DNA of 64,000 nucleotides from Chloranthus sessilifolius (lineage: Eukaryota > Streptophyta > Magnoliopsida > Chloranthales > Chloranthaceae). Made by a program: the position numbers and the translations under genes. The number at the start of each line of letters is the position of its first letter. Position 1 is the stretch's first letter. This document shows positions 25,064-47,750 of this stretch, piece after piece. The notes under the pieces are model-generated. The model did not search any database. It was not told where the DNA came from and saw nothing but the letters and a program-made list of their open reading frames with translations. The stretch covers positions 71,426,646 through 71,490,645 of the forward strand of contig CM037585.1 in assembly GCA_021018995.1 (NCBI GenBank), given 5' to 3'.

Positions 25064-25464
25064 TATGCATCGATCCATGTGCCTTGAGTTGCAGCCAATC
25101 AGAGAGCAGAGGACTCAGTTCTGTTATGCACAGCTGAGGTGTCTTCATTTCAGCCAAAGAAAATCACATGTGGACTGCTGTTCCATGTGCAGAATGTTAT
25201 GCCCAGCTGATGTGTCTTTGCAGCTCTCAAAAATGCCCCTATCGGCCATTGATATTTTCTATTGCAGCCTTTGTATAATTACTGAACTAATTTGGAATTA
25301 AACTGTAGTAATTACCAACATAGCCCTTATCAATTAGAAATGCGGGCTGCTGATTGAGAGGTTCAAGTGTATGGAGCTGCTTTAATGGTTGGATGAAGGT
25401 GTCGTGAGGATGAGCTAGCTGTAGCCTCAAGCTGTCGACCGATTCAAAGGATAGGGAGCTCAAG

Positions 25465-26035: not shown

Positions 26036-29000
26036 TTCCATGTGTACTGCTGTTGTTCTATCATATTTAAATGCACACCCTCATATATTGTCTAAAATGA
26101 CATCGAAAGTGTGCAATTACTCTAATATGTAGTGCTCAGAAAAACCGCAGCAAAGAAATATCCTCCTTTCTAAAACTATTAATGTGCAGCTGGCTGCAGC
26201 TTGAAGTTTTATGCTTCTTTCAGCTGCTTAGCTGTCACTACACTTGATGCTTGAACTTAGAGTGCTGCAGCTGCTGAGAGTTCCTCTGCTGGCATGTTCA
26301 TGGAGCTGCATTGGTGGAGCTTCTCTTCATTTCAAGCACACTTCAAGCTGTTATTCTACTCTAAGATCGATCACACCATGGCCCTTCTTGCCTCGATTAT
26401 AATAGAAGGTTCCAAGTCCTCTTTTTGGCATTTTTACATAGGAAAACTACATTATTCTATATTTCATCCCTAACTACAAAATATACTGAAAAACTATTAT
26501 TAACCACTCTAGGTACTAACAAAAGTCAGGTTTAAAGGTGTAGAAAGTGGCAAAAATCAGTGCTTAACACTTCAGCAGGTGGTTCCTGGATTCCTTTACC
26601 CTTTGCTTGCTTCAATGCAACAGCCTTGGACTGTGGCTTTTGGGAAGTACTTTTTCTTTTCCTAGCAGTTCTTTGTCTTTTTGGAGTGGGTGATGGCTTT
26701 GGGGTAGGTTCCTTGATTTTGAGTCCAGGTTTGACTTGGCTAGGATCCTTTGAATCTAGGGCTGTTTGCTGGAGAGGTACATCTGGGTTTAATTCTTTAA
26801 AAAGAACTTCTGCCAACTCCCTGCCAGTTTGTGCATTTACGGACTTCTCCAAAGCTACAATAGTCACCCCATAATCATAAGCCCTCTCCTCAGTCAATCT
26901 CAGTCTCTCTTTCAGTTCGTTGATCACATCTTCTTGACTCTCAACTCTTCTCTTTTCCTTGTTGTATTGAACCATAATCTCTCTCCATCCTTGCTTGATT
27001 TCCTTTTTCTCAACCTTATGAGCAACCATCAGGAGTTTAACTTTATCAAGGAGGGGCTGTCGCACTGTAGCTTTCAGGTCAGCCATGCCTTGAACTACAT
27101 CCCTCTTTAAGTATGCATTAGCTTGCATGGCCAGGAGGAGGGTGTAGTAAGGAGGTTGGGGATTACAAGAGGTAGGAAGTATGGGCTGCACAACGATGGA
27201 AGAAGTGCTAGCCAGCAATGGAAAGGGACAGGATGAAGACAAGGTGGGGTGGAGGGTAGAGGTGAGGGACATTAAGGGCAGATGCAGGTATGGGTTGTAG
27301 TTGAGGTTCAGGGTCTGTTTGGTTGGACGCATCTTTGGAGGTGATGGGAGAAGTTTCTGGGACAGGTACAATGGGTGTACGAGCAAGTGGGGGATTATGG
27401 ATTGATGTAAGGAGAGGTGACTATTGGGAAGGTTGGGTTAGAGTCGTTAAAGTTGCTTGGATGGATTGTAAAATGGTTGGGATGGATGTAGGGTCTGGTA
27501 GGGTGGAGTGAATTGAATGAAGATTGGCCTCAATGGAGGCTTGGGTTTGGGTATTGGCCAACATTTGGGAATGAAGGGAGAGTAAGAGGTGCAGGATATG
27601 GGGTAATAGGTCAGGTATGGTAGTGGTTGTAGGTGGGATAGGTGAAACTAGTTGAAAGGGAGAAGTGGGTCTATGAGTAAAGGTAGTGGCCTGTGGTTGT
27701 GTCTGATGTGGAGGGGTGAAGTATGGAGGGTGAGGTGAATTTGGGAGAGGGGAATACTCCTGGTTGATGTCTCCTAGGATAGTGGACATCATAGTGGAAA
27801 ATTCCTCTCTTGTAAATGGGTCATGGGCATGGGATAATGGAATGGATTAGTTTAGGGGGTTCACATGTGATAGGTACAAAGGGTGGGGAAGTCTCAATGG
27901 AATGATGTGGGGTTTCAAAGGTATGGGTTTTAGGTTCATAGGGTGTGGGTATGGGGTCTGGAATGGTTGTGGTTTCAGGGATTGGAATGGTTTGAGACAT
28001 ATAGGTGGGATGGGGTCCAATGGGGGTTTTGGCAGCTTTTCTTTTCTTCTGACATGGGGCCTTGACAGGTGGGCTAGTGTGGGCTGGAAAAATAGGTAAG
28101 GGTGCAGAAATGGGTAAGGTGTCAATGGCTATGGTGGATGGTGGTGAAATTGAGGTGGCTATGGCTGTGGTGATTGGTGATATAGGCTCAGGTAAGGGTA
28201 GTAGACTTGTGTGGGGCTGTGAGGTCTGTGTTGAGAGTGGAGGCGGTGTGGCAATGAGTGTAGGTAAAGGTGGTGTTAAGAGAGTTGGGGCTAGCATGGA
28301 GGTAGAGGGAATGGTTGGGGAGGTAATGGTAGTGCTGGCTGGCACATGTGAGGTGGAGGATGTAGCAGCATCAACAGTAGCTGCTACTTCTTGAATGGTG
28401 GGGGTTGCTTCTCTCAATAACTCCTCCCTTTGCTTTTTCTTCTTCTCCATCATTGTGCCACTAATTCCCCATTGTTTCTTTTCACTCTTTTTGGAGTTCA
28501 AGGCCATCGTCTCCTCCTCCCTTTGAAAGGGGTATTTCTAAAACTTCAGCAATGCAGTAATAAATTTGCAGTAGGAAAGGACATGAGGTTTCTTCTTGAT
28601 TTTCACCTTTTCATATAGATCCTTAATCCCCTCAAAAATCAACTTGGCTGCATCCAAGTGATAATTCTTATGAAATGAGAAGAGGGCATCAGTTATGGGG
28701 TACCTCCTCTCTTGCTCATGACCAGAGCAATAAACATTTTTCCTTAACACCCCATCAATGAATCTGAGGTTGGGGTGCAAGTCCCTCTTCCTGATTGAGT
28801 CGCTTGAGATAGTGATTCCTCCAGTTAACTCCCTTACTATCTCAGTGATGGTGGCAGTCAAAGGAGGACCCAAGCTCCATTCAGGGTTATACGTGGCTAG
28901 TATCCCAATATTCTTGTAATGTCAGATTGGTTGAACAGCATCTCAAAGTCATCAATCAATACCAGCAGTGCTGGGTTTCCATCATCACCAGTTTTCAACC

Positions 29001-29490
29001 TCATATTCTGATAAAACAGTCTCACTAGTCTTGGGAAAACTAGCTGCATCAGGAGCCGCAACAGGGGCAGCAGAGATGTCTTGGTCAGATACTCAATTGA
29101 GGCAGAGGTCTCTGGTAGCTCCTCAAAATAGACTTTGTCAAAAATAGTTTCAGCCCCCAGCTGGATTGCTTGCACAAATTCAGAAGGGACCCGGAGGTAT
29201 TTAGTAGTCTCTTCCTCCTCAGCCTCAGGGACTACAGCTTTGCCATTTTTCTGTTTCTTTGATTTTTCAGGGCTCTTAGAAGGTGAGTGCTCTCTGGCCC
29301 TCTTCTTTGGGGCTGATTTCTTCTTTTCTTTTTAGATTGGGGGCTCAACAATAGGTGGAGGCACCTCAGTGGTCTCTAATGTGGAGGCCTCTGCAATCCC
29401 TACAAATTTTCTAGTAGCCACAGGGCTGCCACTGGTAGACGGGTTTAGCATAGCAGCTAGGGTATCTAAAAATTTTGAACCCGTGGCCAT

Positions 29491-30639
29491 GGGTGTTCAA
29501 TTATCAAAATTAAGGCTCACATATCACATAACACACTTAATACACACAGAAGCACCAAAATTTTCATTTCTTTCTCTCTAATTTACTTAACCAATCAAAG
29601 CACAGAGCGAGAGTTGGAGAGCTTACCAATTAAGAGCTAGGGTTCCACCTAAAGACTTGCACAACGGCTCAAATCCCCCCAAACCTTGTTTAAAGTGACC
29701 AGGAGTAGCTGGGGAATAAAATGGTGAGTGAAAAATGCTTTAGGTGGAGTGGTTTAAGTTGTAGAGAAGAAAGTAGGGAAAGGGGATTTCAGTTGTGGTC
29801 TGGAGAAGCAAAAAGATGAAATGACGAAAATGAAGGGTTTCGCAGAGTTTATAGAGCTAAACCCACAGTTCGCAGAGTTGGAAATAAGTGATCGCAGGGT
29901 AGATTTTTTGCACATTAACATTTGATAACATGAGAAGTTATGTCGCACAGAAGAAACTGCCTTTCAATGCATTTCGCGGAGTAAAAGCTTTGCCTTGGTG
30001 CACGAGAGCTATTTCACCCTTCAGAATTTTGCCCCGCGATGTTCTCGCGAAGAACAAAATATCTGATAATCCTTTCATGCGGATTGGGCTCGCGAAGCAA
30101 AAGTAACTCTGCGAGGCTCTATTGCAGCCATTGTTCAGGCATTGTAGCGCGCGGGGGAGCCAAAAATGGGCTCACGCAGTTGATTGAAGCCTTTAAGGCC
30201 TGCGAGAAAGTAGTATTCTCAACCTTTAATCTTTTAACTCGATGCTGCACATGGGTCAGTGCATCCATGCTGTTGTGCACCTGACCACAGAGTTTCAGTA
30301 CCAAACCTCTCACATGTACTTCATTTCAACATGATAATTAAATACCCATTAACAACATCAATTTATCAGAATTGCAGAATCTTAAAGATAGTTTTTCAGG
30401 TCAATTTCATGGCAATTATGAAGAGAGCACCTCAATCATTCATCAACAAACATACACATCAAATTCAAATGACAAAAATGCACATGTATTCAACACCAAA
30501 TTCAATAGAAAATTCAAAAACAGACAAAGTAACACAAACCAAACAATATCACACTGACAACAGAAATTGACAAATTTTGAAACAACACACATCAGAACAA
30601 ACTTTTCATACATATGGTACATTTATTACAATTCTTTGG
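29491..30639 (-). other. Region between gag and ORF2, family B copy 2
   Basis: No protease or pol coding is visible where gag-pro-pol would be expected. The ORF2-proximal half holds the internal CGCGA array; the gag-proximal half (30310-30600) is AT-rich and without a recognisable gene. Confidence 0.6.
29838..30212. repeat. Internal CGCGA motif array, family B copy 2
   Basis: Includes TTTCGCAGAG (twice), ATTTCGCGGAG, CCCCGCGATG, TCTCGCGAAG, GCTCGCGAAG, CTGCGAGG, AGCGCGCGGG and CTGCGAGAA. This is the family B LTR motif in a non-LTR position between gag and ORF2. Confidence 0.75.
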
Positions 30640-31827
30640 ATCACTGAGCACTAGCTTCCTCATGAGTGGAGGATGCATCTCCAATCATATACTGCCCTTT
30701 TGGATCTATCAGGGGTTGACTATGCAATTTTCCTTCCTCCCTTCTGTACAAATCATTACAAATTTGACCCAACTGGTCCTCAATCTTCTTAATGCTTTGT
30801 CCATGAGAATTGACAGTCTGTACCAGGTTCCCTAAATTTTACATTGAAGCTAGCATCTTCTCTTCAAATGCAAAGGATCTAGGCTGTTGTGGGGGCAGGG
30901 CAAACTGGCTAGACTGGGGGGCAGGTAGCAGAAAATTTTGCCTTGGTGGGTACCCTTGGTTAAACTGGTGATGGGGTTGAGGATATGAATCTTGTCTCTA
31001 CCTCAGGTTTGGGTGGTTCCTCTAAGAATATTCAGCAGGTTGCTACCCATAATTTTGAGCAACATTGGCATGCTTCATAACAAACTCAGGAAACTGGTTG
31101 GCAGATGGACAATCATGAATAGAATGCGTGGGAGATTGGCATATCAGACATGCTTTCTCCACCTGTGCAACCATCCGCGGCTACATCACATTCATTAATT
31201 TGTCAATTTTTAAGGATAAATTGTCCACCTTCCTCTCCAAATCACCTCAGCTCTCTTGTGGAGGTAGCTACCACCACAGGAAGCATCCACCATATCCCTG
31301 CTCTTTGGATTAATTCCATGGTAGAATACTTACACCAGTTGCCACATTAGAATTTGGTGGTGGGGGCATTATTTTAACATCTCCTGAAATCTTTCCCAAG
31401 CTTCATAAAAATCCTTAGTTGAGGACTGAGTAAATGACAAAATATTTATCCTCATCTGGCTGGTTTTGTTCATGGGAAAGAATTTGGCCAGGAATTTAGT
31501 TTGAAGGTCACTCAATGACTGTATGCTGTTGGCTGAGAGCTTTAATAGCCATGTGATGGCTTTGTCCTTTAGTGAAAAAGGAAAAAGCCTCAGTTTGGTG
31601 GCCTCAGGTCCCAAGCCAGCAATATTTAAAGTAGTGCAAAGTGCTAAAAATTGGTCGATATGCTTGTAGGGATCTTCTTTACTAGGCCCATGAAACGAAG
31701 GGAACATATTAATGGTGGAGTATTTAATTTCACAATTTCCCTCAACAGAGGGAAATTGAATGCAGAAGGGGGAGGTGTACTCCCCAGGTGCATTGTACTC
31801 CTTTAATGTTCTCTGCCTCTTAGCCAT
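30640..31827 (-). pseudogene. gag: Athila-type Gag, family B copy 2
   Basis: Minus-strand gag starting at an ATG near 31827 (MAKRQRTLKEYNAPGEY; Athila Gag starts with a similar RTL.E..AP). The capsid region follows: FHGPSKEDPYKHIDQFL, LRLFPFSLKDKAITWL, FLAKFFPMNKTSQMR and FYEAWERFQEMLK, all hallmarks of the Athila retrotransposon Gag. Further on are a degenerate zinc knuckle (CLICQSPTHSIHDCPSA) and the C-terminal SIKKIEDQLGQ helix. The first 150 codons are open; about half a dozen stops follow from 31369 on. The open frame extends upstream to 32004, but the extra residues are hydrophobic and unlike Gag, so I prefer the inner start. Protease is absent. Confidence 0.85.
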
Positions 31828-32263
31828 TATAGCTGGTTTTGTTTCAATAATAGGGTCCTGTGCGGTGTGTCTAGGTCTAAGGATCCTTTCAACCTCTAGA
31901 TTTGAAGGTTCTAACTCAGGGTTTAAGGACCTTCTACCATGCATGTACTCACACCCACAATAAGTAAAGAGAATACTCACAAGCACAAAAAAAATAAATT
32001 TCAAACAAAAATTAATAACTACATAGATTTACACTAAGCAAATAACAGGGAATTAAACATATATGACTGAGATTTAGGGGAAAGGAATTACAAACAGAGC
32101 TAGCTACACTCCAACTGTAGCTCTAGCTTTTCTCTTCTTCTATTGTCCATTTCTACAAAATTGTAAAAAATATCAGTAGTACTTTATTCTAGATTAGGCA
32201 TAACTATAAAGAATTTAGAAGTCTAAATTATAGTACAACTCAGGTCTACTAAATAGATCAATA

Positions 32264-32281
32264 TCCTCGACAATGGCACCA
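32264..32281 (-). other. Primer binding site (tRNA-Asp type), copy 2
   Basis: Minus strand reads TGGTGCCATTGTCGAGGA, a CpG-decayed form of TGGCGCCGTTGCCGGGGA, the tRNA-Asp site used by Athila elements. It starts six bases inside the LTR end. Confidence 0.75.
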
Positions 32282-32656
32282 AAAACTTGTTGTTTATAAT
32301 TCAGTCTGTCAGAGGATGTACTGATTTATTATGTGGTGTTGGAAGAAAATTAAAATCAAAGTAAAACAGAGGATAAAAGTGATATGGTGAAAATAGCAAT
32401 CCTAAAACATCCTAAGCCTACAAGATCCAGGGCTATTGTAATAAGTTTTGATAAGTAAGAGTTTGTCCCATAAAGAAATTGATCTAGAATCCAAAATGGC
32501 CTATAATAGTAGCCCTTCAGATCTGACTACAGATCCGACAATCCTAAAGAAAGGGAGTTGGGTGTCACGACTATACTAAATTAATCCTAACAAAAGATAA
32601 ATAAACTGTAGCCCTATCCTAAAGAAACCATTAAGAAGAAGATGGTGATGGTGTGT

Positions 32657-34708
32657 TGTTGTGGAATTTTAGTGTGATGTTTTATGGTGTAAAAAGTAAG
32701 AGAAAACAGAGATGGATTCAGCACAACTAAAATATCCTAGGCCTGCAAGATACAGGGTCCTTTGTAGCAAGCTTTAAAAGAATGGTGAGTAAGGGAATGT
32801 CCACAGGGAGGTTGTTTAGAAATAGGATAAATCTTCAGATCTATAAGAGATCTGACACCCAAGTTATGTCTACTTTAGTTAAAAAACAGGGGAGAGTTTT
32901 GAAATGAGTTGTCACTTAAACTAAACTACAAATAAAATGCAGATTGTTCTGGATCGAATTTGGAACTTCAAATCTTGCAGATGGAAGGTTTAAAAACTCA
33001 GAAAAATGGAGAAGAAAAGCTTGGAGATTGTTTTCACTATAATCAGGTTGAGCTAAGCATGTCACAGGGGTTCAATAGCACATAAGTCCCTTAGTTGGCC
33101 ACAGGCACTGTCTGCAAACACAGCTGCAGGGCAAAACTTCCACTCCAAATCATAGGATCAACCTGGCCTTAAGGCTATGACCTGTCCACTTTAATGGTCA
33201 CAGACCATCCTATAGGCTTTATCGAATCCATTGATTACAGTAGATAAATCCAATTGAGGCCTGAGCTAAGATTTACCTTAAGGTTATGATCTGTCCACTT
33301 TAATGGTCACAGGCCATCCTAGAGATCTCCTACAGAGCCAGGGCCTCAATTAGAACAATTAAGACCACTACAGATGCTGCAATTTCCAGGTCATAGACAC
33401 AGGAAATTACAGGGATATCAGATCCAGGGAATTCAGATGATATCCAAAAGGTCTACCAGTTAAGTGGGTGAGCTGATCAAGCAACTCCTCTACACAAATC
33501 TGATCGAGCACCAAGAGGAATCAAAAGAGCTTTAAATCTAATTAAAACATTGAAAATAACATTTACATTGCAAACTAGGTCACTCTTACAATGGAATGCT
33601 CTCAGATCTGTAGTCTATGCAACAATTAACCCCAGCAACACTCTTAACCTTACCCAATTATAGATCTAACTCACTCCTCGCTGCTCCAAGGGGTTTAGCC
33701 AACCATGGTTGGGCTAAAGGAGGGAAAAGGGAATCTCGCTGCAAGCTCTGATCTCTAGAAAATTGCTCAAAAATTTGATCTCCACTAATGGCAATTGGGG
33801 GTTCCAATATATAGCTTTCCTTCTCTATTTTTCCCACCAAAGATCCCTTCTAGAAGGCTGTCAGAATTTGTTAGAGTTCTGTTAAAGCACGTGGGTCAGT
33901 TAGGGTTTCCTGGGGCATCTTCTAGAACGTCATGCCGATCACCAAAGTGCCTTGGATTGCGTGCAATAGGTCACCAAGTCTCAGCGTGTGCATAGCATGG
34001 TTTCTGAGAAGTTCAGCACACAATTTTGATAGGTTGAAGAGGCTTCCGACAGGTTGAAAGTAAGCTTGTAATTCCTTTCGATAGGTTCCCTAGTCTCTTC
34101 GATAGGTTCTGATAGGTTGGGTTTAGCTTCACTGCACTTGATTTGGGGCTTTCGACAGGTTGGAAGAGTGATTCGACAGGTTGAATATTTACATTCTGTC
34201 GCTTCGATCGGATGACCTTTGTTCCTATCGAAAGGTTAGTTCACTCTGCGATAGGTGCTATCTCAGTATTTCTATTTCGATAGGTTCAGTGAACCATTCG
34301 ATAAGTTCAATGAACCTTCCGATAGGTCTCCTCTTTCCCTCAGCTAGCTTTCGATAGGTTGAATTCTCTTTCTCTTTCAACTGCTCGATAGGGTCTTGGA
34401 TCCTGTCAAACTCTTCACTTCTGCACGAATTCTTCCTTTTACTGCTTTTTGATCCTGTCGAATCCTTCAGGTGACTAATCGATAGGACGTTATCAACCTA
34501 TTCTCGCTTCCTTCACCTTATTCTGTTGCTGGGTCTGCATGATGCTGAGAGCTGACTTCTTTGTGGGCATTTTTAAGTGGTTTGTTGCATTATTATCAGA
34601 TTTTCCTGCTAGCTACAAAATGCACTCAACAAAGGCTTATTAGTGTGCTTGCAGGTCCATGAAAGTTCAGGTTAAAGGGTGCAAAGTGGCATTTTTCACC
34701 ACTTAACA
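32657..34708 (-). mobile_element. 3' LTR of family A
   Basis: 2052 bases, TGTTGTGGAATT to CACTTAACA, followed by CACCCCCAAACC. It is 21 bases longer than the 5' LTR because of one extra motif unit near 34085-34105. TATA-like TATATATT on the minus strand near 33810. Confidence 0.95.
34025..34500. repeat. CGATAGGTT motif array, family A 3' LTR
   Basis: About 20 copies of TCGATAGGTT, TCGACAGGTT and reverse-orientation CCTATCGAA or CCTGTCGAA over 475 bases. Confidence 0.9.
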
Positions 34709-34721
34709 CACCCCCAAACCT
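34709..34721 (-). other. Polypurine tract, family A
   Basis: Minus strand reads GGTTTGGGGGTG next to the 3' LTR. Confidence 0.75.
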
Positions 34722-36407
34722 AAGCTTTGCTAGTCCCTGAGCAAAGGAGAATTCAAAAGAAAAATAAAATGCCACTTTCGTAGGGAGCACGGATGCATTT
34801 AGCACATGCACCAAGCCTTTTAAACCCCTAGGTGATCCCTAGTGGAGGAGTGAAGTCTCCTGAGGGTTTTCAGTGAAGGTACCCACAAACTTCTCCAATA
34901 TAACTTAGTTAATAATAGTGCAGTGTGTTAAAGCAAAATTGAAGCAAAATAAATTCAAATCATGTCCATTCATTAAGGGAATTTCATATTTCCATTTGGG
35001 CATGTGAAAGTTTACTGAAATTTCTCCATTATCACTTAGTTTGTATCCAGGAACTTTCTTCTGGAATTTCATGCATAACTCACCATCAATTTGAGGATCC
35101 TGCTTAGATACTTCCCCCATCAACTAGATTTCAGACTCAAATCTCACTAGGGCTGTTCACTCATTAGTACAGAGAAGAGGGGTAAACCATATCACTTAGC
35201 TCAAGAGCAGTTACAGCCCCCAAATAAGACTGCAAGCAAGAGCATAGGCATTGCTCTAATTTATGATGTTTTCTAATTCTTTGCACCATAGATCAAACAA
35301 ATCCACATCTCCACATGATAGCTTAATCCATTTAAGATCAGTAAGGGCTTTTTATTGGGTTGTAATGTGGCTTATGGGCAAGGTTTATAAAGAATAACAA
35401 GGGTGGAATGGGATTCAAACTTTGAGAAATCAGTAAAAAGTAAAGAAGTGATTTGCAACTCAACCTTTTTCATGTCAGCACAATTTCATATACTTCTTGA
35501 ATTTTCAGAGCTAAAGTAGCTAGCTTTTTCTCTTCCTTTCAATCTTTCAATGAAATGACTTCTCTTTCACCCTCAACTGTATTTCTTCCTTTTCAACCAA
35601 ACATTGAACCTTACTCCTCTAACCTCACTTCTCCTTCTTTTCTTGATTTCTCATATTGAGGGTGAACTAAAACAGGTCAAGGGGTTCTGGGTTTGAGTTT
35701 CCTGGTTTTCATCAAAGAAAATTGGGATTTTCAGGGCTCAAATGGTGTGTATCAAGGGCAGTTTACAGGTGGGGAAATTTTAGGCTCAACCTGTCCAAGG
35801 GATGGCCTTACTTCATGTCGTCAATGTCATGAATGCTGTCAAGTTGTTTCAACTTAGATTTCCCTAACTTCTAGTGATTAAAGATAGGTCCCATCAGTCC
35901 TTAGAGCAGAAAAAATTGCCAAGACACTCCTCAAAGAAAACTTTTCAGGCCCAATTCTCACAGAGTATGGCCTTCCATCCAATTTCTTGAGAGTATCTTC
36001 ACAGTTTCTTCTCGTTGCTTGTTTATCACACATTACAGGCTTCCTGCAAAAATTCTTGACATATTCTTCATGAAGAATGTTAAAACTTCAGCTTGTTTCA
36101 TATGCAAATGGTTTTGTAGGTTTCCTTAAGAACAAATAGGAGATGAATTCATTTTTCTAATTATTCCTTTTGAACTTGGCTGTACTACAATTAACTAGTT
36201 TATTGGCATACATGCCACACCTCCAAACCTAAACTAAACAGTGTCCCCACTATTTTAAGACAATGCAATAAAGAGGGAGACAAATGAAAACGAAATATGA
36301 CAAAAGAAAATTTTTTATAGACTATCATAACAAAAATGTCTAATATATACAAGAGATAAATGAAACAAAAAAACACAGGGCCATAGTTGTAAACAGCCAG
36401 CTGCCAG
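34722..36407 (-). other. 3' noncoding region of family A
   Basis: About 1.7 kb after the ORF2 stop with no gene. The block at about 34818-34880 is nearly identical to those of family B at about 9571 and 22186. Confidence 0.7.
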
Positions 36408-38011
36408 CTACCGACTAGATGTAGGGGCTTTGCCCTTGGATTTGGATTGCTTAGGATGCTTAGTGTGTGCCTCCTCAAACTGGGCAGCAGGCTTTTTGCC
36501 TTTAGGAGCAACAGCAGGTGGAGGATCAGAATCTGAATCGGAAGGGAAAAGTACTATGGGGTCCAGTCCTAGAGCCGCAGCAACCCGTCATCTTTGATCC
36601 CTAGTGAGGAGAGTTCCATGGGGGTCAGTCTGAGGGGAGGACCTGGGGGGAGCAGCTTCCTCAGATGGGGCAGCAGGTTGTTTCCCTTTTTTATAGCATC
36701 AGCAGCAGCAGTAGATCTCTTGGTGGTGGTGGTTCTTTTGGAGTAAGTCTGCTTTCGTTTGGGAGGGATAGGTTTGTCAGGTGGAGGTACATCTGCAGAA
36801 GAGGGGGCTGGAACCTCGACAGATTGGGTAGGAGGGGCATGCGAGGTGCTCGGAGAAGGTGGGGATTTCCAGGATCCCAAGTGTAGGTAAGGTGGATGAA
36901 AAGGTGGGTGAAGTAGGAGGAATGATGGGTGAGGTGATGTCAGCAGCAAGATCTGCTGCTGAGGTATTGGCCACTTCCTTCTCTGCTGCAATCGGCTTGG
37001 TTTTTTGAATGAGGGTTAAACTTGTAGACCATTCTCTTTATCCAAAATCCTTGTGAGCCATTTTCTCCACTGGCTCAACCTCCTTGATCCTATATTTCCC
37101 AGCTCTGAGCAGACAGGTAATAAGTCTGCTGAAAGGTAAGCCTCCTCCCTTTGCAAAAGCCTGTCGTTTGAGCACCTTGTCATTTATGTCCACCATAGTT
37201 TCAAAGATCAGCTTAGGTGCATTCACGAACTGTCCCTTAGAACAATAAAATAGGGCATCCACTAATGGGGACCTTCTTTCCTATAAATGTCCTGTAACAT
37301 AGACATTTTTTCTTAAGATGGTATCCATGAATCTGAGGCTAGGATGGAGGTCTCTTCTCATCAGGGATTCTCCAGAACCCACAATCCCATTGGTTAGCTG
37401 CTTGGCCATATCTTTAAATGTAGCTCCAATAGGTGCTCCCTTAGAGCGGTTGGAATCAAATTGGTATGGGACCCCAGAGCCATTCTGATGTCTCTATGAT
37501 CGACAGTCAGTTTCCAATCATCAATCAAAATTTCTAATACATCATCCGTCCCCTGTGCCACCTTCTTCTTCAGATTTTGGTACCATAACTTCACCAACCT
37601 TGGATACACTAATTCTTTCAATGGCGACCGTAGGGGCAACAAGCCTTCTTTCTTCAAATAGCTCAGTGTTTCCTGGCACTCTCCAATGTTGGCAAAATGT
37701 GTCAGGTAAAATCCAGTCTCAGGGACAAGGTTTAACTTGTCAACAAATTCATTGGGGGTGGTTAGTGTAGCCGGAAGCTCTACAGCCATGAGCCTATCAG
37801 GGGTAGCTCTCTCTAAGGGTGTTTCTATCACAAGTTCCTGGATTTCTACAACTTTGGATTTCTTAGCTTTAGGACCCTTTTTGGGTGTCCCTTCAGCGAG
37901 CTTCCTCTTTACAGGTGGCTTGGTAGCGGGGGGTACATTCTTGGAGGATTTAGAAGAAGATGCAATTGATTTCCAACGTATGCTGGCTAGTGTTTCCTCA
38001 GGCTCATTCAT
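36408..38011 (-). pseudogene. ORF2 of family A: transposon-protein-like domain
   Basis: Starts at the ATG at 38011 (MNEPEETLASIRWK) and ends at a TAG at 36408-36410. The N-terminal 205 codons are open: a basic stretch (KRKLAEGTPKKGPKAKKSK), then LPLRSPLKELVYPRLVKLWY and LIDDWKLTVDHRDIRMALG. After a frameshift near 37440 come RRDLHPSLRFM, LRKNVYVTGHL and ALFYCSKGQFVNAPKLIFE, each matching family B ORF2. The remainder is Pro/Ser/Thr-rich with a basic patch (KRKQTYSKRTTTTKRS) and a Lys-rich C terminus. It is about half the length of family B ORF2, mainly because the Pro/Thr and coiled-coil parts are shorter. The domain resembles putative plant transposon proteins; no enzymatic motif is visible and the role is unknown. 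Confidence 0.7.
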
Positions 38012-39052
38012 TGTAATCTCACGGAGTAATTTCTCACTAGCTTGGAATGGGAAGGCTTAGAAAGACAACAGAGTGATAGTATGAAGGTAACTCACCACTA
38101 GGTACCTAGGGTTTCACAAAGCTAGCGATGCACCATTCCAATTTCTCTAAAAAAAAGGGTAAAATGCTCCTTTACGCAGGCTGAATGTATTGACAAGATG
38201 GCACACTAAATAGCAAAAGATTCAGTGGAGATTTAGTAGAGAAAGAGGGAGGCGACAAATGGGGAAGGAAACTAGGGTTTTTCCAGCGGGAAGGAGTGGA
38301 GCAAAAATGACCTATCGACGGGTATAAAAAGGTACAAATGCGATTTTGATAGGATAACTGAATGATTTTGATAGGTCGAGGTGTCCTATCGAAAGCTTAG
38401 ACAACAAAGCTTTCAAAAGGGATGATTTTTGAGGATTTCGATAGGTGAGACCATCCTGTCGATAGGTTTAAACGGCAGAGACAACATCATTTTGACAGGT
38501 GTCCGATATGTACTCAGTACCTATCGAAATCTATGTTTGCCCTTATTTAACCTATTGAGCAGTTGATTTTACCTGTCGAAAACTCCAGTTCCTATCGAAA
38601 CCAGTAGATATCCTGTCGAAATCAACATGACACCTAACGAAATGTGGATTAGGCCTATCAAAAGTCTCAAAACCTAGATAAAACTTTCCTTGTGGGCACC
38701 CTTAGCTTCAGCACTAATCAGGCTCAGTTGCTGTGTGGCCCTATGATTGGATTCTTATGTGGATGAGCTCCCCTTATCTTATGGCAGCTGGCAATTTTGA
38801 AAAATTAATTCACTAGAGAACATGGCATATTTATTTCAAAAGAATGCTTCTAGAAATGTAATTTTAAAGTAAAAACAGAATATGGTACATATGATACATA
38901 CTCAACTGCGGGTGCTAATCTAGAGGATTTGGAAGGTTAATGGCCTCTTCATGTTCCTTGAACTTTTCATCCTTCTTGGATCCATTCTTCAGCAATTGTT
39001 CAACCCCTGATTGCCATTTTATCTCCATGGGCCAATCAATGTTTTGCAGCAG
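38012..39052 (-). other. Region between protease and ORF2, family A
   Basis: No RT/RNase H/integrase where pol would be expected; only noncoding DNA with the internal CGATAGG array at 38310-38665. 38700-39052 shows no gene apart from a few codons after the protease stop. Confidence 0.65.
38310..38665. repeat. Internal CGATAGG motif array, family A
   Basis: About 15 copies in both orientations, for example CCTATCGACG, TTTCGATAGGTGAG, CCTGTCGATAGGT, CCTATCGAAATC and CCTGTCGAAA. Same motif as the family A LTR, in the position where family B has its internal CGCGA array. Confidence 0.9.
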
Positions 39053-41402
39053 CTATTTAGGATTATCATGCAGAGCCTCCTCCAGCCCTGCAATGAAAAA
39101 ATAGGTTTCGTCAAAAGGGGGTTGAGAGCTGGTGTTGTACACATGCAGTTTTACTTTCATGTTGCCAAAGGAGACCTCCATGATTCCAGATTGGCATTGA
39201 ATGCAGGCATTTGCAGTGGCCAAGAAGGGCCTGCCCAGAATCACAAGGATGGAGGAATTACCTTTACTTGGCTCCATATCTAACGCCACAAAGTCAGTAG
39301 GATAAAAGAAATTTTCCACACCCACCAAGACATATTCAATGACTCCCAAAGGTTTCCTTTCAGACCTGTCAGCCAGTTGCAAGACTACAGGTGTGGGCTT
39401 CAAGTCTCCCAGGCCTAGTTTTTCATAGACTGCATAGGGCAGCAAGTTCACACTGGCTCCTAAGTCTAATAGGGCCTTCTCAATTTTATGATCCCCAATG
39501 ATGCAGGGGATAGTGGGCACTCTAGGGTCTTGATGTTTGGTGGGGGTTGCAATGGACATAATTTATTTTACCTTTTCTGCTGAAAAGACTTTCTTGGACA
39601 AGTATGTTCTAGACTGTCTTTTATGGGTGCATAACTCCTTCAGAAATTTGGCATAGGCTGGGACTTATTTAATGGCATCCAGTAAAGGCAGATTAATCTT
39701 TACTTGCTTGAAAGTCTCCATCATTTCCTCAATTTTGCCCTGCCCTTTGTCAAAGGGGAGGGTCCTTGCAATGCCTTGGGAAATGGCAAGTGTGTTGCTC
39801 CTTCACTTGCAGCCTTAGCCAATGGGGCTTCTTTCTTTCTGATTTTTTTTTTCTTGAGGATCCATGTCATCCTCTTTATTGACACTGGGTTGTTCCTGCA
39901 GGTCCACCACTGGTGACCTCTGTTGTGTTTTCGAAAAACTCCTTCCATTATCTTCCTTCAAACTTTTCACAGGCTCATAGCCCACTTGATTATCTACTAG
40001 CCTACCACTTCTCAAAGTTGTAACAGACTTGGCTTCCTCATATGTGGAGGAAACTTCACCCACTACAAACTGTCTTTGTGGATTATCTTGTGATTGGCTA
40101 GGTAACCTTCCTCCTTCTCTCCTAGTCAAAGCATTAGACAGCTGACCAAGCTGGTCCTCTACCTTTTTGATGCTCTGGTTGTGAGAATGCATAGTTTGGG
40201 TCAAGGTGTTCAAGTTCTGTAATGAAGATAGAACTTGTTCCTCAAAAGATGGTGTTCTCACAGCTGAAGTAGGTGCAACTTACTGCACAGGAGGAGCTAC
40301 AGGTTGGGCCATGGTTTGCTGATATTGAGGTCTTGGGACATAACCATCTCGATAAGGCTGAGCATTTCTGTAGGGCATGGGCTGTTGGGGCTGCTGCTGC
40401 TGTTGACTGGGGTATCCATCTTATCTCCACCTCAAATTGGGGTGGTTTCTCTATTGATACCCAGCAGTAGGCTGCTGCCCATAGGTTTGAGTTGCAGCCA
40501 CTTGCTCTGTTATGAACTCAGGAAATTGGGCAGCTGAGGGGCATTCATCTAGGGAGTGAGCAGGAGACTGGCATATAGCATATGCTTCCTCTATTCTAGC
40601 AGCCACAGGTGGCTGCATTGCTCCCATGAGCCTGTCAAACTTCAGAGTTAAGCTGTCCACTTTTCTTTCCAACTCACTTGGCACACTCACTTCATATATC
40701 TTTCCTCTTGACGTGTTCTCTTTCATCAATTTAGATGGTTCTAAATCTCTTGCCAAGGTTTTCCTTTACATAGAGTTCTCATTGATGATGTCAAAGAGCT
40801 CCCATGCCTCCTCAGCAGTTTTGTGAAGGTAAGTGCCTCCACAAGAGGCATCTATCATGTCCCTGCTCTTTGAATCAATTCCCTGGTAAAAGCTTTGAAC
40901 CAGTTTCCATTCAGGGATTTGATGGTGGGGGCATTTCTTGAGGAGTTCTTTGAATCTCTCCCAGGACTGATGAAAATCTTTAGTTGGATCTTGGGTAAAA
41001 GAAATAATACCCTTCCTCAACTGACTGGTCTTTGGCATAGGAAAGAATTTGGCCAAAAACTGACATTGGATATCACTCCAGGACTATATGCTGTTAGGTG
41101 GAAGTAGAGATAACTAGGTTCTGGCTTTGTCCTTTAATGAAAAAGGAAAGAGTCTCATCCTGGTGGCCTCCTCCCCCAAACCTATGATGTTGAAGGTGGC
41201 GCACACTCCTAAGAATCCATCTATATGCTTATAGGGATCCTCCTTGGTCAGGCCATGAAATGAAGGCAACATTTGAATGATGGACGATTTAATCTCATAA
41301 TTTCCTTAGCAGCAGGGAACTGAATGCAAAAGGGGGAATTGTAGACCCCTGGTGCATTGAATTCCTTGAGAGTTCGAGGGTACTGCTACTCACCCATTTC
41401 GA
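39053..41402 (-). pseudogene. gag-pro: Athila-type Gag-protease, family A
   Basis: Gag begins near 41402 with RTLKEFNAPGVYNSPF and shows the Athila capsid signature: FHGLTKEDPYKHIDGF, MRLFPFSLKDKART, FLAKFFPMPKTSQLR, WERFKELLKKCPHHQIPEW and MIDASCGGTYL. A zinc knuckle with a lost Cys (AICQSPAHSLDECPSA) sits near 40560, then a Gln/Pro-rich linker and VEDQLGQLSNALTRREGG near 40130, and a TLRSGR motif near 40010. The last 168 codons (39559-39053) are an aspartic protease: active-site ALLDLGASVNLLP, flap-side PLGVIEYVLVGVENF and ILGRPFL. The protease is intact; Gag has several stops and a frameshift near 41300. The element stops coding after the protease, so it would need RT and integrase in trans. 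Confidence 0.85.
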
Positions 41403-41797
41403 CAGCTTCAAATTCAACAGTTGTGGATGTAGTTTGTCTGGTTCTGAGAAGTCTTTCAACCTCTAGATTTAGTGGAATAATCTCTGGTTGAAGAGTTCTC
41501 CTACCAAACATACAACTCCCACAATTGAAATCAGAGTAAAACTTCACACAACAAATAGGAACACACAATTGATTAACTAATCTAAAAAATTAACAGATCT
41601 GAAAATAAATAGGGGAGAAAAGATGCAAACTATAGAGCAGCCTTCAGCACAGCTCTCCTCTCATTCTGTACTTAGATCTGCTAAAATGGACACAAAGAAT
41701 ACTGGAAAACAGCAAAACTCACAAATGCAGTTAGTAAATTCAGACAAAAACTATAAATCTATGATAAAAACTTAGATCTATCAATTTCTAATCTACC

Positions 41798-41815
41798 TCC
41801 CCGGTAGCTGCGCCA
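41798..41815 (-). other. Primer binding site (tRNA-Asp type), family A
   Basis: Minus strand reads TGGCGCAGCTACCGGGGA against TGGCGCCGTTGCCGGGGA, six bases inside the 5' LTR end. Confidence 0.8.
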
Positions 41816-41821
41816 AAAACT

Positions 41822-43852
41822 TGTTGTGGAATTTCAGTGTGCTGTTTTATGGTGTAAAAATTAAGAGAAAACAGAGATGGATTCAGCACAGCTAAAATAT
41901 CCTAGGCCTGCAAGATACAGAGTCCTTTGTAGCAAGCTTTAAAAGAATGGTGAGTAAAAGAATGACCACAAGGAGGCTGTTTAGAAATAGGATAAATCTT
42001 CAGATCTATAAGAAATCTAACACCCTAGTTATGTCTACTTTAGTTAAAGAACAGGGGAGAGTTTTGAAATGAGTTGTCACTTAAACTAAACTACAAATAA
42101 AATGCAGATTGTTCTGGATCGAATCTGGAACATCAGATCTTGCTGATGGAAGGTTTAAAAACTCAGAAAAATGGAGAAGAACAGCTTGGAGATTGTTTTC
42201 ACTATAATCAGGTTGAGCTAAGCATGTCACAAGGGTTCAATAGCACATAAGTCCCTCAGCTGGCCATAGGCACTGTTCGCAAACACAGCTGCAGGGCAAA
42301 ACTTCCACTCCAAATTACAGGATCCACCTTGCCTTAAGGCTATGATCTATCCACTTTAATGGTCACAGACCATCCTATAGGCTTTATCGAATCCATGGAT
42401 TACAGTAGATAAATCCAATTGAGGCCTGAGCTCAGATTTACCTTAACATTATGATCTGTCCACTTTAATGGCCACAAACCATCCTAGAGATCTCCTATAG
42501 AGCCAGGGCCTCAATTAGAATAATTAAGACCACTACAGATGCTGCAATTTCCAGGTCACAGACACAGGAAATTATAGGGATATCAAATCTAAGGAATTCA
42601 GATGATATCCAAAAGGTCTACCAGTTAAGTGGGTGAGCTGATCAAGCAACTCCTCTACATAAATCCAATCGAGCACCAAGAGGAATAAAAAGAGCTTTAG
42701 ATCTAATTAAAACATTGAAAATAACATTTACATTATAAACTAGGTCACTCTTACAATGGAATGCTCTTTGATCTGTAGTCTATGCAACAATTAACCCCAG
42801 CAATACTCTTAACCTTACCCAATTACAGATCTAAGTCACTCCTCGCTGCTCCAAGGGGTTTAGCCAACCATGGTTGGGCTAAAGGAGGGAAAAGGGAATC
42901 TCACTACAAGCTCTGATCTCTGGAAAATTGCTCAGAAATTCGATCTCCCCCAATGGCAATTGGGGGTTCCAATATATAGATTTCCTTCTCTGTTTTTTCC
43001 GCCAAAGATCCCTTCTAGAAGGTTGTCAGAATTTGTTAGAGTTCTGTTAAAGCACGTGGGTCAGTAGGGTTTCCTGGGGCATCTTTTAGAGCGTCACGCC
43101 AATCACCAAAGTGCCTCGGTTTATGTGTAACAGGTCACCAAGTCTCAGGGTGTGCATAGCATGGTTTCTGAGAAGTTCAGCACACGATTTCGACAGGTTG
43201 AAGAGGCTTCTGACAAGTTGAAAGTATGCTTGTAATTCCTTTCGATAGGTTCCGATAGGTTGGGTTTAGCTTCACTGCACTTGATTTGGGGCTTTCGATA
43301 GGTTGGAAGAGTGATTTGACAGGTTGAATATTTACATTCTGTCGCTTCGATCGGATGACCTTTGTTCCTATCGAAAGGTTCATTTCACTCTGCGATAGGT
43401 GCTGTCTCAGCATTTCCATTTTAATAGGTTCAGTGAACCATTCGATAGGTTCAATAAACCTTTCGATAGGTCTCCTCTTTCCCTCAGCTAGCTTTCGATA
43501 GGTTGAATTCTCTTTCTCTTTTACCTGCTCAATAGGGTATTAGATCCTGTCGTACTCTTCACTTCTGCACGAATTCTTCCTTTTGCTGCTTTCTGATCCT
43601 GTCGAATCCTTCAGGTGACTAATCGATAGGACGTTATCAACCTATTCTCGCTTCCTTCACCTTATTCTGTTGCTGGGTATGTATGATGCTAAGAGCTGAC
43701 TTCTTTGTGGGCATTTTTAAGTCGTTTGCTGCATTATTACCAGATTTTCCTGCTAGCTACAAAATGCACTCAACAGAGGCTTATTAGTGTTCTTGCAGGT
43801 CCATGAAAGGTTAGGTTAAAGGGTGCAAAGTGGCATTTTTCACCACTTAACA
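41822..43852 (-). mobile_element. 5' LTR of family A
   Basis: 2031 bases, same ends as the 3' LTR. TATA-like TCTATATATT on the minus strand near 42971-42980; motif array upstream of it at 43186-43640. Confidence 0.95.
43186..43640. repeat. CGATAGGTT motif array, family A 5' LTR
   Basis: Same array as 34025-34500 minus one 21-base unit between two TTCGATAGGTTC copies near 43242-43258. Confidence 0.9.
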
Positions 43853-45755
43853 TGTGCCAAAATAAAATATAAAATGATGGGAAGTAAGCAGGTTAAGCTA
43901 GAGTTAATGCAGTAATGTAACTCAGATTTAGACTGTCTCTGTAGTGATCCTTGGTGAGATACTATTAATAACCTCAACAAGGTAGAAGAATCCAATTTAA
44001 CCCATGCCATTTGGGTTGCTCTTGGGGCTATACTCTGTCCACTCAAATGGTCAGAGAGTATCTGATAGAGTCTGTCAAATCCCATTGATTAAACCAGAAA
44101 TGCTAACCTAATCCAAAGGAGTAGACTGATCATTTCTCCAACCAATGGACTAGATCAGGCAATGAATATTATTGTAGGCATTATGTAATGCCAGTGCTAT
44201 AAGCTCCCCAAATCTGTACACAGATCTGGCTAATATCCATAGGTATTCCAACCCATAAAGTCCTAAGTGCTTTGCCAAGGCCAACGGCTTAATGTGCCCA
44301 CACAAAGGACCAACAATAGGTTGAATAAGGATTTAGATTCAGCTGGTCACTGCTAGGAAAGGTCTGCAATGACTCAGCCTCAAGCTGTAATTATTATAGG
44401 ATAATCAGATCTGACATCTGATATCGGTCAAGTAAAACAGAGGAGAGCTAGTTCCTACACAAACCTCCTAACAAGGCTCTAAAAGCTCATGTGCAGAGAG
44501 GAAGAATCCTTCTCAGACATGTGGCTCGACACCACCTTAGGGTTATACTCTATCCACTCAAATGGTCATACGGTATATGATAGGTCTGTCCATACCACAA
44601 AGATCTGAGAAAGAATATGTAAACTGCTACTGCCACCATGGAGCCCTAGGGCTACGAGCTCTCCAGATCTGGCTACAGATCTAGCTTTCTATCCATGGGT
44701 CTATTAAACCAAGGGAAATCAGATGGTTGTTGGATGCTTTCAGTGTGCTGATTTATTGTATAATGATGAATACAGAATTAAGTCAGAGTAAAACAGGAGA
44801 TGGATGCAGCACAATAAAAATATCCTAGAGCTGTAAGATACAGGGTCCTTTGTAGCATGTTTTAAAAGAGTAAGGGAATGTCCACAAGGAGGTGAGTTCA
44901 AAAATATGGTAAATCTCCAAATCTGTAAGAGATCTGACACCCTAACTAATGCTAAGTCAGCTAACAGACAGGGGAGATTTTTAGAAGGGTTGTCACTTAA
45001 GTTAAACTACAAATTAAATGCAACTAACTGAGATCGAGTCCAGAGATATAGATCTTGCAGGTGGAAGGGTTTAAAAATAGAAAATGGAGAAGAACAGCTT
45101 GGAGATTGGTCTTACTGCAATCAGGTTGAGCTGATCATGTTACAGGGGTTCAAAGCACACAAATCCCTCAGCTGGCTACAAGCACAGCTACAGGGCAGAA
45201 GATTCCACTCTAAACCAAAGGATTCAACTGATCTTAAGGCTATGGTCTATCCACTTTAATGGTCACAAGCCATCCTATAGACTTCATCCAATCCAAAGGT
45301 TTATGGTGGAAGAATCCAATCGAAACCAAAGATTGGACTGCTCTTAAGGCTATGATCTATCCATTTTAATGATCACAAATCATCCTAGGGAATTCCTCCA
45401 AACCAAAGGTTTCAACCAGAGCAGTAAAATCACTACAGATGCTACAATTTCTAGGTCACAGATAAAAGAAATTGCAGGGATATCAGATCTAGGGAGATCA
45501 AGTGGTATCCAAGAGGTCTACCAGTTTAGTGGGTGAGGTGATCAACAGACTCCTCTACACAAATCCGATCGAGGACTAAATGAAACCAAAGGAACTATAG
45601 ATCCAATTAAAACAATAAAAATAACATTTACATTGCAATAAAACTCGCTCTATAATGAAATGCTCTCAGATCTGTAGTCTGTGCAGCAATTAACCCACCA
45701 CAACACTCTTAACCTTACCCAATTACAGATTTAACCTCTCTCCTTGTTGCTCTTA

Positions 45756-46876
45756 GGGTCTATTTGGATAAAAACACGGGAAACATGGGAAAGTAAAATA
45801 CTATTACTATATTTTCCCATGGATACCTTAGTTGTAGGAAACCATGGTATTCCTTTGTTTCACTTTATTTTCCGTTGTTTGGATAACCACATTGCTAGCT
45901 AGGAAAACTCAGGATTAACCAAATCCTGTGTTTGGATACATATGTAGGAAATTATAGGAAAATAACATATCCTAACAAAAAAAATAGCTAAATGACCAAA
46001 ATATTATATATGTATTAAGTTTTTTTTTCTCATTACATATTGTAGTGAATTGCTCTAGTGGTAGACTTGGTGCTTTGTGAAGGCTAGGTTCTAGGTTCAA
46101 ACCTTGTTACATATAATAAATTATTTATTTTTTTAATTAATTATACTAGAGCACATACACCATATATGTGAGTATATAGCTCTACAACATAGTAGAGCCC
46201 CTTGTGAGAGAAATCTCTCCAAAAATAAATCCGTGCAACATCTGAATAGATGTAGGGGAGCTTAAAAATAGACCAAAGTTGTGGGATTTAGTTAAATAAA
46301 ATCAAAGAAGAAATATTTGGTATGAAAGCAAATACCATAAAAAAAATTGTTTTAAGATTTTTGATAATTTTTTGTAGTCAAGATAACTTTGGATGGATGA
46401 GAATCTACTAATATAAATTAGGATCCCTAAACCTTAGTAACAAATTTTTAGAAAGTTTGGGTGGTCAATTGACCACCTAAATCATAACGTGGCTCTGCCT
46501 CTGATATTTGGGGATGTGTGTCATATAGAATCAACATCAGGCCGTCTGATAGGGGCATCATGATCTTAAGATCTATCATGAGGAACATTGAAAAAAAAAA
46601 CAATCTCCATCGTCTTATTTAAATCAGTCAATGGTTTTCGTCTGTGAAAAAAATGTGTGGTATTATGAGAAGAGTCATACGGATGAGAAGTTCAAAGGTA
46701 CAGAAGATAGAAAACCGAGGGACCCCCTCGGCATTTCTTCTCGGATTTTGACGGAAAATGTGAAGATAATTTCCGACCCTTTAATGTTATCCAAACAACG
46801 GTAATCTCAATAATTCATTTCCCGCACATGAGTTTTCCCTTATTTCCCCTTGTTTCCCTTAAAACCAAACAGGCCC
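45756..46876. mobile_element. PIF/Harbinger-like non-autonomous DNA element
   Basis: Termini GGGTCTATTTGG and CCAAACAGGCCC are imperfect inverted repeats extended by GGGAAA-type blocks on both sides, flanked by TTA on each side (45753-45755 and 46877-46879). The 3-bp TTA duplication and a GGG.CTGTTTGG terminus are typical of PIF/Harbinger (Tourist-like) elements. 1.1 kb, AT-rich, with no transposase. Confidence 0.75.
46045..46110 (+). repeat. tRNA-like segment, probable SINE head
   Basis: Contains an A-box-like TCTAGTGGTAGACTTGG and, 38 bases after its TAGTGG, a B-box-like GGTTCAAACC, followed by an AT-rich tail. The cloverleaf looks incomplete, so it is not called a tRNA gene; a degenerate tRNA-derived SINE head inside the Harbinger-like element is most likely. 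Confidence 0.45.
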
Positions 46877-47210
46877 TTAGAGAATTAGCCAACCATAGTT
46901 GAGCTAAAAGAGGGAAAATGGAATTCGCTGCAAGCTCTGATCTCCAAAATTTTATCTAAATCTCGATCTCCCCCAATTGCAATTTGGGGATCTCCATATA
47001 TAACTTTCCCCCCTATTTTTCCCGTCAATCTTCCCTTCTAGAAGGTCCTCAGAGTTTGTTAAAGTTCTGTTAGAGCACATGGGTTGGTTAGGATTTCCTA
47101 GGGCATCTTTTGGATTGTCGTGTCGATCACCAACATGCCTCAATTTGCGTGTAGTAGGTCACCAAGTTGCAGCGTGTGCATAGCTACTTTTCTGAGAAGT
47201 TATTCACATG

Positions 47211-47750
47211 ATTTTGATAGGTTCAGGAAGCTTCCGACAAGTTCAAATGGAGCTTTGTGGCCCTTTTCGACAGGTTCTCTGGTCTCTTCGATAGGTTCCG
47301 ATAGGATGATTCTTCTCTTAAAGCTTCATCATTCTCAGCCCTTTGTCTGGAGCATTCGATAGGTTGGAGAAGCTTTTTGACAAGTCGGAGGACCATTTCT
47401 ATAGGTTTAGCTCTGCATGCCATCATTCTAATAGGATTGCTCTCATTCCTATCGAAATGCTCAAGCACCCTTCGATAGGTTCTGTTCCAGCGTCTCCATC
47501 TCGATAGGTTTAGGAAACCATTCGATAGGTTCACCTTACATCTCAGATAGGCTTTTGATAGGATGGTTTGTTCCTTTCTTTCAGCTGCTCGATAGGTTCT
47601 TGAATCCTATTAAACTCCTCAATCCACACAAATCCATCCTTTCTCTGCCTTCAGATCCTATTGAACCCTTTCCAACTGCACGAATTCCTCCAATTTAGCT
47701 TTCAGCTCCTATCGAAGTCTTCAAATGACCTCTCGATAGGATGTTTTCAG
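47211..47750. repeat. CGATAGG motif array in solo LTR 44728-48016
   Basis: Around 20 copies such as TTCGATAGGTT, TCGACAGGTTC, CCTATCGAAATG and decayed TTGATAGG, upstream of a TATATATGG-type sequence (minus strand, near 46995). Confidence 0.9.

Follow-up and report, generated by a model that had tools for sequence, protein, structure and literature searches.

Family-specific motif arrays at two sites of Athila-like retrotransposons in Chloranthus sessilifolius, with a possible role in coupled promoters

Why would a retrotransposon carry an array of one short motif in its long terminal repeats (LTRs) and again in front of an extra gene? This question is raised by 64,000 nucleotides of Chloranthus sessilifolius DNA (contig CM037585.1, positions 71,426,646 to 71,490,645; hereafter the window, meaning this whole stretch), a plant-like sequence in which LTR elements, most of them on the minus strand, are nested. 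Two related families, A and B, are each represented there by one element that bears a second open reading frame (ORF2) downstream of gag, namely element A and B copy 2. A-type sites, with the consensus AACCTATCGAA, cluster in both LTR U3s of element A and again between protease and ORF2; B-type sites, CCTCGCGAGG, cluster in the LTR U3s of B copy 2 and again between gag and ORF2. We propose, with a probability of about 0.62, that A and B possess two coupled promoters under one trans-acting factor. The parts of the two elements are as follows (PBS, primer-binding site).

32657-43852 (-): element A, inserted within the 5′ LTR of B copy 2
32657-34708 (-): element A, 3′ LTR, 93.2% identical to 41821-43852
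33964-34486 (-): U3 array of that LTR (sites with at most 1 mismatch); TATA-like box at 33814
36409-38011 (-): element A, ORF2, disrupted by stops and a frame change, with a basic N-terminal stretch
38309-38665 (-): element A, internal array, 15 sites with at most 1 mismatch from CCTATCG, two-turn spacing
39050-41821 (-): element A, gag (PF03732) and protease (PF13650), with a PBS-like stretch adjoining the LTR
41822-43852 (-): element A, 5′ LTR, U3 array at about 43191-43630; TATA-like box at 42979
16837-18020 (-): B copy 2, 3′ LTR, R/U5 part
20539-22064 (-): B copy 2, 3′ LTR, U3 part with a degraded CGCGA-type array; TATA-like box at 20992
26570-29490 (-): B copy 2, ORF2, broken, with a weak PF20167 (Transposase_32) match in its middle piece
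29838-30212 (-): B copy 2, internal CGCGA-type array between gag and ORF2
30600-32287 (-): B copy 2, gag (PF03732) region and PBS-like stretch
32288-32656 (-): B copy 2, 5′ LTR, first part, split off by element A
43853-44727 (-): B copy 2, 5′ LTR, second part
48017-49397 (-): B copy 2, 5′ LTR, U3 part with a CGCGA-type array; TATA-like box at 48411

Motif arrays and their family specificity

Exact motif counts on both strands were compared with 200 dinucleotide shuffles per region in 24 regions, the inverted B-like LTR listed below being left out. CGATAGG occurs nine times in the U3 of the A 3′ LTR and nine times in that of the A 5′ LTR (shuffle mean 0.03, maximum 1, in each case), and six times in the protease-ORF2 gap (mean 0.04, maximum 2). 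By the same exact count it is absent from the gag-protease region, both R/U5 parts, and ORF2 with the 3′ region of element A. CGCGA was found six times in the gag-ORF2 gap of B copy 2 and six times in the right part of its 5′ LTR (mean 0.40, maximum 4, for both); the right part of the 3′ LTR, with two copies, is not enriched (mean 0.77, maximum 4). Among the 24 regions, CGCGA is present in none of those of A, and CGATAGG in none of those of B. When all 7-mers were ranked without bias, CCTATCG came top in all four A-type U3s and in the A gap, CTCGCGA in B copy 3 and the B-type solo LTR, and CCTCGCG in B copy 1.

The other LTRs in the window are these.

1747-4344 (-): B-like LTR (copy 3), B-type array; TATA-like box at 3160
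6757-9441 (-): 3′ LTR of B copy 1, B-type array; TATA-like box at 8378
9816-12329 (-): B-type solo LTR, CTCGCGA array; target-site duplication CTCAC; TATA-like box at 11344
14301-16808: inverted, rearranged and degraded B-like LTR beside the 3′ LTR of B copy 2; U3 side 14301-15420
24033-26569 (-): first A-type solo LTR, A-type array; target-site duplication CTTCA; TATA-like box at 25062
44728-48016 (-): second A-type solo LTR, A-type array; target-site duplication ATGGT; TATA-like box at 47003; interrupted by an insert of about 1.1 kb at about 45753-46885

Seeded motif models were trained solely on LTRs of other copies, then scored on element A, B copy 2 and B copy 1 against 100 shuffles. The A model, from the two A-type solo LTRs only, was AACCTATCGAa (13.0 bits), and the B model, from the CTCGCGA solo LTR and B copy 3 only, was CCTCGCGAGG (11.0 bits). 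The internal gap of A contained 14 A-type sites (shuffle mean 0.76, maximum 3) and no B-type site; that of B contained three B-type sites (mean 0.35, maximum 2) and two A-type sites, the latter not beyond chance (mean 0.56, maximum 3). The U3s of A held 18 and 14 A-type sites and no B-type site. B-type sites numbered seven in the 5′ LTR of B copy 2 (mean 0.44, maximum 2), six in its 3′ LTR (mean 0.58, maximum 3) and nine in B copy 1 (mean 0.56, maximum 4), and the U3s of these three LTRs had 0, 1 and 0 A-type sites, respectively. Site numbers stayed within the shuffle range in gag and ORF2 of both families and in the flank 49500-64000. Models trained on the U3s of all nine array-bearing LTRs (60 shuffles; 15 for the flank) found eight B-type sites in the B gap (shuffle maximum 2) and 13 A-type sites in the A gap (maximum 4). 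The B model of this second kind is loose (4.9 bits) and exceeds shuffles in the unrelated flank (20 sites vs a maximum of 14), so the held-out model was relied on. With exact and held-out counts both beyond shuffles, we rejected a chance origin of the arrays.

These counts bear on an earlier, sequence-only reading of the window, which had placed CGATAGG arrays in both A LTRs and at 38310-38665. Its coordinates are right, and the counts at these places exceed the 200 shuffles. It had also assigned CGCGA arrays to B copy 2, which holds for the 5′ LTR and the internal gap and fails for the 3′ LTR by exact count (the held-out model finds the six sites given above). The mutual exclusivity of the two motifs that it reported is borne out among the 24 regions, and the comparison with shuffled sequence that it had proposed, run within the window, put both the A gap and the B gap above shuffles. 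Arrays are present in nine of the ten LTRs examined. The exception is the inverted and degraded B-like LTR. Its U3 side lacks exact sites of both kinds, and a single CCTATCG lies at 15761; the two B-type and three A-type model sites of the whole LTR were reached by 5 and 17 of 100 shuffles, respectively.

The two cores differ mainly by two central bases, CCT-AT-CGA in A and CCT-CG-CGA in B, and conservation in the arrays is confined to about 12 bp. The A core stands out clearly: four A-type regions have 37 exact CTATCG sites, all with C in front and 33 with A behind. The B core is looser, with C before 15 and A after 18 of the 28 CTCGCG sites in six B-type regions. An unseeded search returned CCTtTCGAaAGG for the internal array of A, and cttCGCGaag or AaCcTCGCGAgG for B copy 1 and the B-type solo LTR; at 12 bp, unseeded searches of nine sets gave a motif-like consensus in eight, the exception being the first solo LTR with a CAGCTG-like consensus. 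Sites of both types appear dyad-like (CCTATCGAtAGG in A, CCTCGCGAGG in B), a symmetry that is suggestive only, because scanning both strands favours palindromes. That motif type tracks LTR descent is supported by the R/U5 tree (10 rows), which places all CGATAGG LTRs in one clade with a local support of 1.000; in the short outer-U3 tree (9 rows), the first solo LTR joins that clade at only 0.478. An LTR sharing just 58% R/U5 identity with A retains the A motif.

Array spacing and promoter anatomy

Distances between dyad centres in the A-type arrays cluster at 10-11, 19-22, 29-32, 42-44 and 49-54 bp, in multiples of 10.4-10.5 bp. With a period of 10.5 bp, phase coherence was 0.78 in the A 3′ LTR (17 spacings), 0.73 in the A 5′ LTR (13 spacings), 0.64 in the second solo LTR (15 spacings) and 0.77 in the internal array of A (13 spacings). 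As a control, we took the maximum over 61 periods in 4000 jittered sets; the observed values were reached by 0, 2, 6 and 4 of the 4000 sets, respectively. Three of four arrays thus show whole-turn spacing of their A-type sites, the A 5′ LTR belonging to the same element as the A 3′ LTR.

In the four A-type arrays, 18 pairs of neighbours on the same strand lie 19-22 nt apart; their spacers are 22-37% identical, and those of all pairs 28-35%. Such near-random identity makes tandem duplication an unlikely cause of the A-type spacing, which appears to be kept without clear sequence copying, the internal site included. A minisatellite origin of the A-type arrays was rejected on these grounds, conservation ending at the motif. 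We also rejected the internal array as a copy of the U3 array, as collinear homology is lacking: internal and LTR arrays share short matches only (15-68 nt among the best two per comparison, best E 5e-4), and a self-comparison at E 1e-5 gave no match between the internal gaps and the LTRs.

Read in the sense direction, each of the nine array-bearing LTRs shows one TATA-like box within 400 nt after its last site, as do 10-26% of shuffles of the same LTR stretches (300 shuffles each). In the internal gaps, a TATA-like sequence lies between the last two sites, TTTTTATACCC in A (context ...CCTATCAAAATCGCATTTGTACCTTTTTATACCCGTCGATAGGTC...) and CTATAAAC in B copy 2 (context ...CTCTGCGAACTGTGGGTTTAGCTCTATAAACTCTGCGAAACCC...), and the ORF2 ATG follows, after a leader, about 300 nt (A) and about 350 nt (B) past this box. 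Because every LTR array stands upstream of a TATA-like box, and because comparable boxes of Sireviruses have been discussed as promoter boxes (see below), the anatomy of the arrays would point first to promoters.

According to the mechanism that we propose, the U3 array would be an enhancer upstream of the LTR TATA box, driving genomic RNA, while the internal array, which has the same motif and is no copy of the LTR array, would be the enhancer of an internal promoter from which ORF2 gets a messenger of its own. Both promoters would be switched on together by a single factor that acts in trans, probably as a dimer, on the dyad-like site; in A it would probably bind one face of the helix. The same motif at the main promoter and at the start of the extra gene suggests one regulator for both, and a motif that is kept within a family and lies about two central bases apart between families is what separate factors for the two families would lead one to expect. 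What we infer from these features is promoter activity, the internal TATA boxes, the shared factor and dimeric binding.

Several observations weigh against the two-promoter interpretation. The internal array of B is clearly weaker than that of A, with three held-out sites only, and other 7-mers rank top in both B copy 2 LTRs (GAGGTGA) and in the B internal gap (CGCAGAG). Phasing at 10.5 bp is absent from all six B-type regions, and the first solo LTR is unphased (p = 0.32 at 10.5 bp; with the maximum taken over 61 periods, 2274 of 4000 jittered sets reach the observed value); the A 3′ LTR and the second solo LTR, being 80% identical in R/U5, are not fully independent of each other. Neighbouring spacers are slightly more alike than all pairs in two of the four arrays (0.35 vs 0.28 and 0.37 vs 0.31). 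The TATA pattern of the LTRs is unmatched in both internal gaps, where the boxes were chosen by eye, and the box of A (TTTATACC) is weak. Between the paired A LTRs, CpGs were kept and lost in a ratio of 14/6 inside the array and 7/8 outside, and in the right part of B copy 2 in ratios of 13/18 and 1/4; with loss inside the arrays not clearly lower, protection of their CpGs as a sign of anti-silencing is unsupported. The window has a single ORF2-bearing element with an internal gap per family, which sets the co-variation of ORF2 and motif at n = 2.

ORF2 and the lineage of the elements

Aligned pieces of the A and B ORF2s are identical at 38% and 43% of amino acids, and a single block reaches 59%, as compared with 68% for gag, in agreement with the earlier claim that both genes are homologous and ORF2 diverged. 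The proportion of nonsynonymous differences (pN) is 0.27-0.43 in ORF2 and 0.19 in gag, which fits a protein-coding gene under constraint and evolving faster than gag; synonymous differences (pS 0.69-0.79) are near saturation, making pN below pS weak evidence. The middle piece of B ORF2 matches PF20167 at E 2.3e-4 and 21.5 bits, under the Pfam cut-off of 45, and the broken A ORF2 pieces that were scanned gave no match to this family. Domain searches of ORF2 found no DNA-binding domain, and no homologue emerged at 0.001 among 437 candidates, nor among 248 in another search. Structure predictions for two ORF2 pieces were unusable (mean pLDDT 39.0 and 48.8). No transmembrane segment was found in nine scorable pieces, the highest 19-residue Kyte-Doolittle mean being 1.43 (threshold 1.6), a scan that can miss frame-broken segments; on the scored pieces, ORF2 was rejected as a classical envelope.

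The lineage was assessed from what remains of the elements. Both A and B copy 2 have gag, and protease was found in A only; searches of their internal regions in three sense frames at E 0.01 yielded no reverse transcriptase, RNase H or integrase. The LTRs end TGTTAAG...CAACA, with the TG..CA termini, and 5-bp target-site duplications are exact for the three solo LTRs and agree at four of five bases for element A. In A and in B, the PBS-like stretch matches a tRNA-Asp complement imperfectly, at 15 of 20 bases; Diaspora and Calypso use a tRNA-Asp PBS. The missing enzymes together with this PBS make A and B look like non-autonomous, Athila-like Ty3/gypsy elements, an assignment that, for want of a reverse transcriptase, is based on the PBS, the LTR ends and gag, whose family does not mark any one lineage. 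The 3′ LTR edge reads GGTTTGGGGGTG in A and B; in Sireviruses, a AGGGGGAG polypurine tract precedes the 3′ LTR by 10 bp, a feature that A and B lack.

Other features of the window include a solo-LTR-like insert of another kind at 18021-20538, starting TGTAATATCC, which we take to be Tekay-like. It contains the palindrome TCGATTAATCGA 17 times (12 exact) when up to two mismatches are allowed, with 13 of 16 spacings at 19-22 bp; tandem duplication is likely for these copies (period about 20-21 bp, 76-80% matches). A tandem array with a 24-nt period and a GGCCCAA-rich unit occupies 4485-4709. AGATCTG occurs six times (both strands) within 400 bp at 44301-44800, in the R/U5 part of the B LTR and at its edge, and the stretch downstream of B ORF2, 22063-24032, is almost free of CpG (observed/expected ratio 0.02).

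Known systems and candidate factors

The two-site layout has already been published for Sireviruses, a precedent that the sequence-only reading had missed. As described in the available portions of that study (PMC2829016, Bousios et al. 2010), 13 elements have palindromic motifs, and nine of these have ENV and extra copies in the linker, 77 of 79 lying before ENV. The LTR clusters begin 200-400 bp past the LTR edge and span 300-500 bp; the authors discussed the boxes as promoter boxes and proposed an internal ENV promoter. A and B resemble these elements in that an element-specific, CG-containing, dyad-like motif precedes TATA in the LTR and recurs in front of the extra gene, the internal site of B more weakly. 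They differ in that Sireviruses belong to the Ty1/copia superfamily and that 12 of the 13 motifs have a CGG-CCG core, absent in A and B; the same portions describe neither helical phasing nor a motif switch between close families.

The likeness to VANDAL transposons drawn by the sequence-only reading is partial. Short family-specific motifs clustered in non-coding parts and diverging between related families are common to both (PMC5735166, PMC10398659), and the target motifs of VANC21 and VANC6 are alike (PMC5735166), as far as the accessible text of these papers goes. VANC targets, however, form tandem repeats there, which A-type arrays do not (spacer identity 0.22-0.37); VANDALs are DNA transposons, and VANC binding was established by chromatin immunoprecipitation sequencing and gel shift, whereas ORF2 of A and B is known from sequence alone. 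An extra ORF of sunflower Athila 14 is likewise in sense, on the 3′ side, similar to PF20167 and equipped with a predicted nuclear signal (PMC11728184), but the sections seen describe no motif array upstream of it, and A and B show no pol and a PF20167 match below the cut-off. Maize Grande gene23 differs in being antisense to gag-pol, and the excerpts at hand describe no array shared with the LTR (PMC7264820). A functional analogy, and an analogy only, is offered by an animal retrovirus. In foamy virus, one element-encoded activator, Tas, serves both the LTR and an internal promoter.

If the two-promoter interpretation holds, a host transcription factor would have somewhat better than even odds of being the regulator, and ORF2 itself somewhat less than even odds; the cis data fit the one as well as the other. 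Plant LTR enhancers made of short repeated host sites are well known. The promoter-type position and the phasing agree with stress or developmental host factors binding the arrays in both promoters, the families using different paralogues, and mainly stress-related factor sites were recovered by the Sirevirus authors, in the portions available (PMC2829016). A host factor alone, however, does not explain the two-base difference between families or the lack of mixing in the copies seen, and taken without that condition, we put this special case of the two-promoter interpretation at somewhat less than even odds. The other special case, which the sequence-only reading had favoured, makes ORF2 a nuclear, element-encoded protein that would read the motif of its family both in U3 and at the ORF2 promoter, activating or de-silencing the element in the manner of VANC or of the foamy-virus Tas loop, motif and ORF2 having co-diverged. 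We consider it unlikely, even though both families have the array in front of ORF2, the N-terminal stretches are basic, no scorable piece has a hydrophobic window above 1.6, ORF2 evolves faster than gag with pN below pS, and the motifs differ by about two bases, as for VANC targets. Partial views of two sunflower studies add a PF20167-like Athila ORF with a predicted nuclear signal (PMC11728184) and Athila clades that differ in LTR methylation drops, for which the authors raised element-encoded factors (PMC12844716). This evidence has to be set against the lack of a detected DNA-binding domain, unusable structure models, two families only, saturation that weakens the pN argument, and the four of 13 Sireviruses, in the text available, that have LTR boxes without an ENV gene (PMC2829016), which makes a strict dependence on the extra protein of the element itself less likely. 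Slightly more doubtful is the broader proposal that the Athila-like extra ORF, usually named env-like, is a sequence-specific nuclear regulator reading its own dyad motif in the LTR and its own promoter; to the same degree we doubt that each such family would form a closed self-recognition system, its specificity switched by about two bases, in convergence with VANC and the Sirevirus layout.

Explanations without promoters fare less well. An internal site that precedes ORF2 in both families would suit integration, chromatin-insulator or packaging signals, but the arrays lie upstream of TATA-like boxes, and a genomic RNA begun at the LTR TATA box would not include the 5′ U3 array, an argument against packaging; we regard such signals as improbable. 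That the arrays are minisatellite-like or compositional by-products in non-coding DNA, as CpG-rich islands left by drift, might be suggested by their CpG observed/expected ratio (0.36-0.63, vs 0.02-0.17 elsewhere in these CpG-poor elements). It is hardly credible given counts far beyond dinucleotide shuffles, conservation that stops at the motif between near-random spacers, and the recurrence of one motif in non-homologous internal and LTR contexts.

Beyond the Sirevirus precedent, the two-site layout in an Athila-like gypsy element, the motif difference between related families and the whole-turn phasing may be new, a claim that we make weakly after a limited literature check. What the extra ORFs of plant LTR retrotransposons do has been called unknown, debatable or controversial in the literature, to the extent that it was available, and the family-specific pair of motifs makes binding of its own motif by each ORF2 directly testable. 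If the two-promoter interpretation is true, the two-site layout would span gypsy-type and copia elements, which suggests that the production of genomes may be generally coupled to the accessory gene.

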